Assembly: GCA_012797845.1 (NCBI GenBank)
Contig: JAAZOH010000032.1
Coordinates: forward strand, 1-36,649
From: Candidatus Beckwithbacteria bacterium
GTDB lineage: Bacteria > Patescibacteriota > Microgenomatia > UBA1400 > UBA1449
Length of the DNA: 36,649 nt
Direction: 5' to 3'
The notes below the pieces were generated by a model. It made no database searches and had not been told where the DNA came from. It was given only the letters and a program-made list of their open reading frames with translations. Each line of letters starts with the position of its first letter. Within the stretch, counting starts at the first letter, position 1. This document shows positions 11,094-13,070 of this stretch, piece by piece. The position numbers were made by a program, and so were the translations under genes.

Positions 11094-13070
11094 GTGAAGC
11101 TTAGAAAATTTTTTCTCAGTCTATTTTTTATTTTAGGTTTTTTGGTCTTAGTAAAGCCTGCTTTGGCTACAGATCCAAATAGTTTTACTTTTGATGATTT
11201 TACTCAAGGTGGGGCCAAATTAGCTGGCGTACCATTTCAAGTTACTATCTATGCAAAAAATAGTGGTGGAACAACAGAGACTGGTTTCAATGGTCAAGCT
11301 TATTTGACAGATGACACAGGAACGATTGCTCCAACTGTAACTGGCAATTTTATTAATGGTGTATGGACTGGGAGTGTTTACATTACCAGCGCAGATGAAG
11401 ATATCCAAATGTATGTTGACTATGGAAGTGCTAGTGGCACTTCTAATCAATTTACAGTTGGTCCGGATACAAGAATAAAGTTTATTACTATTGTAAGTGG
11501 AAGTAATCAAAGTGGCACAGTTTACTCACAGCTTGGTCAATCTCTTATTGCTAAAGTGACCGATCCTTTTGATAATCCAATTTCTGGAGTTGGGGTTAAT
11601 TTTGCTATTACCAGTTATCCACCAAAATCAACAGGACAAGCTCTGACAAGCACTTCAGCAACAACAGCCGCTACTACTGGCAGAGCTAGTACTGCATTAA
11701 CCTTGGGAAGAAAAGATGGGACATACGTAGTGACAGGTAGTATTACATCCGGAGCCAGTACACCGGTACAATTTTATGAAACTGCCATTGCTGGGCCGAC
11801 TATTTCTTTATCTATTAATCCAACTTTGGCAGTGATGCCGCAAGGAAGTCAACTACCTTTCACTGTTAAGGGCTATGATCAATATCAAAATGAAAAAACT
11901 CTTTCGAGTGTTGCTTGGTCAGTAGTAAATAGTGGAGGAACCATTGATGGTGCTGGAGTTTTTACAGCTGGGGCAACTAATGGTAATTACATAAATACAG
12001 TTAAAGCAACAGCTGATAGTCGAACAGCTTACGCTTCCATTTCAGTTATTCCGGAAGATCAAGGCACTGGTTCTGGTAGTGGTAGTGGGAGCGGAACTGG
12101 TGAAGAAGGTACTGGTTCAACAGCTACTCCTAGTGCTACACCCACACCAACCCCAATTGAGATTTCTCAAGTGATTGTAGATCCGGATTTTATTTCAGCC
12201 CTGTCGGGAGCAACAATTCCGATTACTGCTACTGCAGTTGACTCAAGTGGTAGCGTAGTCACCGGAGTTGCTTATAGTTTTTCTATTAGCGGTGATTTAG
12301 GTACCCTGGTTCAACAAACACCAAATACAGTTTTGTTGACTGCATCAGAAACTGGAATTGGGACAGTAACAATTAGTGCTACTCAAGGAAATGTTACCAA
12401 GGTTGCTAAAATTGTTGGTAGTGTGGGTACTGGTATGAATAGGAGGTTGGTGATTGAGAATATTGCTAGTCCACAAAAAGTGGGTGAACCATTTACAATT
12501 TCTATTGCTGCTAAAAACTCACTCAATGAAATGGTAACCAATTACACTGGTCCTTTGGCGCTTGCTGATACAACTGGCACTATTGACCCAGCTACAGCTA
12601 GCCCTTCTGCTAGTGGTTTATGGTATGTCCAGGCCATTATTGGTTTAGCTTCTGACGAGGTAACAGTGACTGTGGCTGGAGATGGTATGGTGGGAGTAAG
12701 TAACATTTTTAGAGTTGAAGGAGAACCACGAATGGATCAGGTTGGTATTGGAGCTGGTGGAGCTGGCGCTGGGTTGGGAGGTGTAAAAGGAGCCTCTATT
12801 GCTGCTCAAATTCAGGATTTTTTGAAAGATATGAAATTAGGTGGTAGTGGAGGAACTGGTATCAAATATATTGGAGCAGGGTTGGCTGCTGGCGTAGGAA
12901 TTTTGGGGGCCAGTATTGGAGGTGGAATTATGGTCAGTCGTGGTTTGGAAGCTATTGGGCGTAACCCCTTTGCCAAAGGACGGTTACAGTTTAATTTATA
13001 TGGTAGCATTATTGCCTTTTTAGCAGCAGCGGGATTAGCTTTAGCGGCAGCTGTGTTTATTTTAAAATAA
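11094..13070 (+). CDS. Exported Ig-like repeat protein fused to an ATP-synthase c-subunit-like hairpin
   Basis: The protein has 658 residues and starts at GTG 11094. Residues 1-25 are a signal peptide ending ALA. About five Ig-like modules follow: roughly 27-132, 135-232 ([14 protein letters not shown], Big_1-like), 235-325 (Big_2-like), 356-447 and 452-545. A Gly/Ser/Thr/Pro linker (about 326-355) divides them. The first and last modules resemble each other ([14 protein letters not shown] versus [14 protein letters not shown]). A Gly-rich stretch leads to residues 590-658, a clear F-type c-subunit hairpin: glycine-rich helix 1 ([20 protein letters not shown]), loop LEAIGRNP (619-625), then helix 2. 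The essential helix-2 Asp/Glu is absent: Leu643 takes that place and neither helix has an acid. The c-subunit N-terminus faces outward, so the fusion is topologically sensible. b-like and delta-like genes follow. The fusion is seen directly; its role is unknown. Confidence 0.85.

Follow-up and report, generated by a model that had tools for sequence, protein, structure and literature searches.

In the 36,649-nucleotide stretch of Candidatus Beckwithbacteria DNA analysed here (the window), a single gene joins a secreted, Ig-like surface protein to the two-helix hairpin of an F-type ATPase c subunit. We propose that the product, c*, is probably the rotor subunit of a second, ion-uncoupled F-type ATPase, in which a c-ring with extracellular arms would be driven by F1. 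The fusion is conserved in related genomes and stands in an F1-type operon that has no gene for subunit a, and its hairpin has lost the carboxylate of canonical c subunits; the nucleotide-binding motifs of the associated F1 are intact, its alpha chains form a separate clade, and a family of secreted proteins is associated with it.

The fused protein and its hairpin

The open reading frame list and its translation give one open frame of 658 codons with a GTG start at 11094-13070 on the plus strand. The parts of this protein, and the genes on either side of it, are as follows.

11094..13070, plus strand: c*, a surface protein with a C-terminal F-type c hairpin, 658 aa (open reading frame, Pfam/NCBIfam, orthologues)
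11094..11168, plus strand: signal peptide, residues 1-25, ending ...ALA at a putative cleavage site; hydrophobic stretch at residues 1-28 (sequence)
11169..12788, plus strand: Ig-like ectodomain, with Big_1 at residues 151-226 (Pfam; strand-rich, low-confidence model; kept in orthologues)
12051..12161, plus strand: Gly/Ser and then Thr/Pro linker, residues ~320-356, of varying length (alignment)
12789..12842, plus strand: conserved GASI(A/S)A segment, a predicted short helix preceding the membrane hairpin (alignment, models)
12855..12956, plus strand: c helix 1, residues ~588-621, with a Gly-rich packing motif (alignment, AlphaFold models)
12957..12968, plus strand: GRNP loop, residues 622-625, putative cytoplasmic contact for gamma/epsilon (invariant EAxGRNPxA)
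12969..13067, plus strand: c helix 2, residues 626-658, without the ion-binding carboxylate (alignment)
13133..13654, plus strand: b*, peripheral-stalk subunit b-like, with one N-terminal transmembrane helix (synteny, home-made profile)
13651..14235, plus strand: delta*, ATP synthase delta/OSCP subunit (Pfam OSCP, E 2.8e-16)
10454..11020, minus strand: divergent upstream gene, 188 aa, of uncertain membership (syntenic in the related genomes G003 and G016); no Pfam match

Pfam places the Big_1 match with an E-value of 7.9e-6, and the ectodomains of relatives of c* match Invasin_D3 as well as Big_1; an outer-membrane beta barrel domain was not found in c* by the Pfam scan. Beyond the linker follow more Ig-like sequence, the short helix, whose GASI(A/S)A segment is missing or variable in some distant orthologues, and the C-terminal hairpin. 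The full-length AlphaFold model is poor (pLDDT 48.7) and does not allow the Ig modules to be counted, of which a sequence-only reading of this DNA proposed “about five”.

The hairpin is homologous to known c subunits. In c* itself, Pfam ATP-synt_C (PF00137) reaches only 19.5 bits over residues 593-646 (E 1.2e-3), below the cut-off of 24, and four c* orthologues pass that cut-off (27.7-30.6 bits). Six NCBIfam models of F-type c subunits match c*, the best being PRK06876 (E 5.7e-6), and a profile of nine orthologues searched against the PDB returned 18 matches, all of them ATP synthase c chains (best E 3.6e-10, columns 591-655). A chance resemblance of two helices is rejected by these matches. 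The predicted structure of residues 545-658 has helices at ~588-621 and ~626-657 with GRNP between them, at low confidence (mean pLDDT 56); Foldseek with the hairpin returns rotor-ring subunits only, yet with E-values of 1 or more, which is not significant. The sequence-only reading had called a fusion in one unbroken frame, a signal peptide and a c-subunit hairpin at the C terminus, and each of these calls is borne out here, the first by the frame itself together with orthologues that carry the same fusion, the second by the features of residues 1-28 and the third by the profile matches.

Four of 52 related genomes hold c*: G003 (53% identity), G016 (52%), G002 (59% overall, 683 aa) and G001. 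The gene is unbroken in the first three, where no two-gene state is seen, and the copy in G001 is interrupted only at assembly N runs. Phylum-wide, c* or clear pieces of it occur in 9 of 381 genomes, counting the genome of the window; nine full-length copies align, the others being 35-59% identical to the copy in the window, and in seven of eight comparisons conservation is higher in the hairpin than in the ectodomain. Since independent genomes carry the unbroken fusion, at 52-59% identity and in further cases at 35-38%, an assembly artefact or a read-through of two genes is rejected. An oddity of one genome is rejected as well, as fused c subunits are found in many Patescibacteria genomes. 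Public records that match c* come from a Candidatus Beckwithbacteria MAG, SZUA-360, Microgenomates RBG_16_45_19 and UBA1449; matches to the Ig part in KSB1, Verrucomicrobia and other phyla are weak Ig matches. One version, a protein of 2,589 residues (L109 9933-17702), places NHL/teneurin-like propeller repeats in front of class I (c*-type) Ig modules and a c hairpin, and an alpha gene lies ~10 kb from it (G059:C8:46580-47992).

In c subunits the EAxGRNPxA loop normally touches gamma and epsilon, and a carboxylate in helix 2 binds the ion. The loop E-A-x-G-R-N-P-x-A is invariant in a 12-row alignment of c*, canonical c and c', a second class of fused protein described below. A carboxylate stands at the helix 2 position in all 28 canonical c subunits (FAEA or FTEA) and in none of 28 fused hairpins; 27 of the latter have no Asp or Glu in their last 27 residues, and the remaining one has such a residue a few positions away. 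Judged by sequence, the fused hairpins have kept the feature that contacts gamma and epsilon and lost the feature that carries ions.

A second F1-type operon without subunit a

Directly downstream of c* lie b* and delta*. Pfam ATP-synt_B has no match in b*, which we assign by synteny and by a home-made profile that itself contains b*; in every contiguous class I operon a b gene occupies this position. In family f1, c* has no F1 genes right beside it; in the genome of the window, the second F1 (alpha2, gamma2, beta2 and epsilon2) is on another contig, C10. The genome also has a canonical set, with a near the end of C10 and c, b, delta, alpha, gamma and the start of beta on C18. Positions 1-972 of the window overlap positions 1-972 of L009 (the left ends of the window and of C10) over 972 bp at 93.7% identity, inverted, and in G002 genes from both flanks share one contig. 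If the contigs join as the overlap suggests, the second F1 would lie on the strand of c*, ~17 kb away from it. The overlapping ends hold an aspartyl-tRNA synthetase-like gene, and reflect either joined contigs that differ by strain variation or a local repeat.

Six genomes (G003, G016 and the distant G401, G328, G390 and G186) carry the contiguous operon c*-b-delta-alpha-gamma-beta-epsilon without a, which is the ordinary F-ATPase order minus that one subunit; the same profile set detected a in four canonical control operons (L129-L132). The five c* genomes from the same order as the window have one subunit a gene each, and this gene adjoins canonical c in G003, G016 and G002, where the contigs show it. 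Alpha, beta, gamma, delta, epsilon and b (the last by synteny and the home-made profile only) are all present, and so are their nucleotide motifs: Walker A is intact in beta2 and in all 21 beta chains of relatives that were checked, as are the P-loop and the Arg-finger motif in every class I alpha chain tested. In a quick tree of alpha chains, with some long branches in class II, the class I, class II and canonical chains form three separate groups (SH-aLRT 99, 100 and 99), each group being one side of a branch. With no carboxylate, no a and an F1 of its own, c* is rejected as a part of the ordinary ATP synthase; a dedicated F1-type operon without a, together with the lost carboxylate, makes an ATP-driven function plausible.

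Two further observations concern these gene sets. Between gamma2 and beta2 stands a multi-spanning membrane gene, glycosyltransferase-like by eye (L009 9015-11384), which is one frame of 760 aa in G001 and two frames here, through a frameshift or a sequencing error. The canonical ATP synthase delta of this genome (L003 862-1209) is only 115 aa long.

Class II operons and surface neighbours

The second class of fused protein, c', was reached through divergent alpha genes of relatives. It is ~246-334 aa long, has a signal peptide, a small ectodomain and a c hairpin that likewise has no carboxylate, and heads another operon without a (class II; loci L095, L096, L097, L110-L128 and L134-L152). On its own, c' has no Pfam match. 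It occurs in about 61 of the 381 genomes, by a hand count of rows that extend into the hairpin, for frames no longer than 360 codons. In a further set of 20 loci, mostly more divergent ones, F1 genes adjoin the fused c in 16 cases and a in none. Some class II operons have no recognisable b or delta, which makes the stator of this class uncertain. Two of the 20 loci have two different c-like surface genes; at L134 and at L142, two such genes with c hairpins lie near one a-less F1 operon.

A gene for subunit a is undetectable anywhere in 12 of the 24 genomes with a fused c; in G012, G015, G114, G189, G217 and others, an F-type operon without a is present and PF00119 finds no a genome-wide. The F-type operon of these 12 genomes can therefore be no ion-coupled ATP synthase of the known type, and ‘ATP synthase’ calls in such genomes need revision.

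Class II operons often adjoin giant genes that encode a MerR-type HTH followed by a long fibre (17 loci in the neighbour cluster), among them L097 12088-16593, L116 10723-19269 and L119 12125-18775; most have the MerR-type HTH at the N terminus, which puts a DNA-binding-type domain at the start of a surface fibre. Some giant fibres carry an endosialidase-chaperone domain (Peptidase_S74), and the c' ectodomain recurs within giant fibre proteins. In class I, a secreted family encoded beside alpha2 (L009 14438-15547) is present at full length or nearly so in 10 of 13 genomes and, at a comparable score, in none of 32 other genomes, a difference whose p value of 9e-8 is only indicative because the genomes are related and not independent. 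This protein and the next secreted one (15707-17821 on L009) end in ...YTGTLMYNALPTY or similar. At L105, L106 and L108, a secreted gene pair stands directly upstream of class I c*; in L108, the one locus scanned, the pair consists of a dockerin protein and a WxL-interacting-type protein. Beside class II genes of three genomes lies a phosphoglycerate mutase-like gene (L095 11474-13201, L046 1472-3112 and L098 6795-8126). The F1-like motor of M. mobile binds phosphoglycerate kinase, and the parallel is possibly a coincidence.

A proposed ring with outward arms and its alternatives

The c subunit of F-ATPases has both termini outside and its loop in the cytoplasm. With this topology, and with a signal peptide and an ectodomain in front of helix 1, the likeliest machine is a c-ring with outward arms. 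The C-terminal hairpins of several c* molecules would assemble into a ring in the membrane, which gamma2 and epsilon2 of the dedicated alpha2/beta2 F1 would grip from inside through the EAxGRNP loop, while b* and delta* would act as the stator. Such a ring would move no protons, since there is neither a subunit a nor a carboxylate, and the energy of ATP could then only become mechanical work: hydrolysis by F1 would turn or strain the ring together with the Ig-like arms outside, whose probable target is a surface partner or a host cell. For the ring to rotate with subunit a missing, b would have to be anchored in some other way. The sequence-only reading had arrived at a ring with outward arms, and its architecture and the topology with both ends outside fit all findings made here; what it overlooked was the loss of the carboxylate and the second F1-type operon without a. 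Its statement that no protein of this design had been described holds within the literature searched, where we found no description of one.

The main rival to an F1-driven ring is a static one, in which the c* ring would hold Ig-like adhesins in the membrane as a multivalent anchor. The role of the second F1 would then be limited to assembling the ring, gating it or energising its export or turnover, without continuous rotation. The adhesin-like ectodomain speaks for this reading, as do the surface and cell-wall proteins encoded near the operons, and rotation is a property that we infer. However, every part of a rotary engine with a stator is conserved, from gamma, epsilon, b and delta to the c loop that meets them, and a mere anchor could do without these parts; we therefore consider a static anchor unlikely. 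A device that works its arms linearly, for secretion or pulling, for example by retracting or releasing the giant fibres encoded beside class II operons, would have a precedent in the model for M. mobile, where rotation becomes a pull by way of a surface crank protein (PMC11864180). But class I operons have no such giant gene and no pulling element was identified, and we give this version little credence.

Still less probable is a variant ATP synthase, in which canonical a would provide ion coupling in trans, perhaps with a mixed c/c* ring. The subunits are homologous, and class I genomes do hold one canonical a and one canonical c; against this stand the carboxylate missing from both c* and c', the full separate F1 set, the distinct alpha clades and the 12 of 24 fused-c genomes in which there is no a to borrow. 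The least credible of the alternatives is a convergent hairpin, with helices that are c-like by resemblance and tied to F1 by neighbourhood only. The sub-threshold Pfam score of c* as a single protein and the absence of any Pfam match in c' alone are what one would expect of it, but profile searches of the PDB return only c chains, the EAxGRNP loop is conserved, and a fused c heads b-delta-alpha-gamma-beta-epsilon in many genomes.

Among known systems, the proposed F1-driven ring would come closest in its working to the Type 2 and Type 3 F1-like X0 ATPases of mycoplasmas, the gliding motor of M. mobile and the MIB-MIP system, which show that such repurposing of F1 happens (PMC3369863, PMC12994834, PMC11864180). 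Both the c* and the X0 systems have a second F1 (alpha, beta, gamma and epsilon) beside a true ATP synthase, and in both subunit a is not recognised (PMC3369863, PMC12994834). Protein 5 of the X0 system (MMCAP2_0577) has a signal peptide, a large N-terminal part and, at the C terminus, two membrane helices with a short loop and no charged residues, a layout that, compared by its published description, is that of c*; its authors find no homology to F0 (PMC3369863, PMC12994834). The two differ in that b, delta and c are absent or unrecognised in X0, whereas the c* system keeps b, delta and a recognisable c, and in that X0 is a seven-gene cluster with a 12-helix protein, no gene for which stands between the subunit genes of contiguous class I operons.

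With the cell's own F1FO ATP synthase, the c* system shares homologous subunits, the order c-b-delta-alpha-gamma-beta-epsilon and the c loop; it differs in having neither a nor the carboxylate, in a c extended by a signal peptide and a large ectodomain, and in an alpha from a separate clade. It derives from an F-type ATPase but lacks a and the carboxylate, two features by which an ATP synthase is defined. N-ATPases keep a and an ion-binding c, lack delta and are ion pumps; what they and other extra bacterial F-ATPases have in common with the c* system is a second F-type operon in the genome. Invasin/intimin-type Ig proteins resemble c* in their Big_1 modules and, in its relatives, Invasin_D3, but no outer-membrane barrel was found in c*, whose anchor is a c-type hairpin that goes with an ATPase operon.

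Taking both classes together, a wider reading is conceivable, which we put forward tentatively and with somewhat more doubt than conviction: a surface machine found throughout the Patescibacteria, consisting of a channel-less rotary F1 and a c-ring with interchangeable arms (invasin-like Ig modules, small beta domains or NHL/teneurin-like giants), which would spin or pull surface structures during attachment to host cells, with X0 as a more decayed version. How Patescibacteria grip their hosts is poorly known. For the two-helix membrane protein in the F1-like X0 ATPases of mycoplasmas, so far unexplained, the c* machine, if real, suggests a direct hypothesis. It also bears on an observation that has been called intriguing (PMC8080830), namely that Patescibacteria without an obvious source of a proton gradient nevertheless encode an ‘ATP synthase’. 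In some of their genomes, the genes so named may be no ATP synthase at all, and subunit a and the c carboxylate should therefore be checked before any metabolic inference is drawn. If the proposal holds, F-type ATPases would have become machines of the cell surface that run on ATP, and this in much of a major bacterial phylum.
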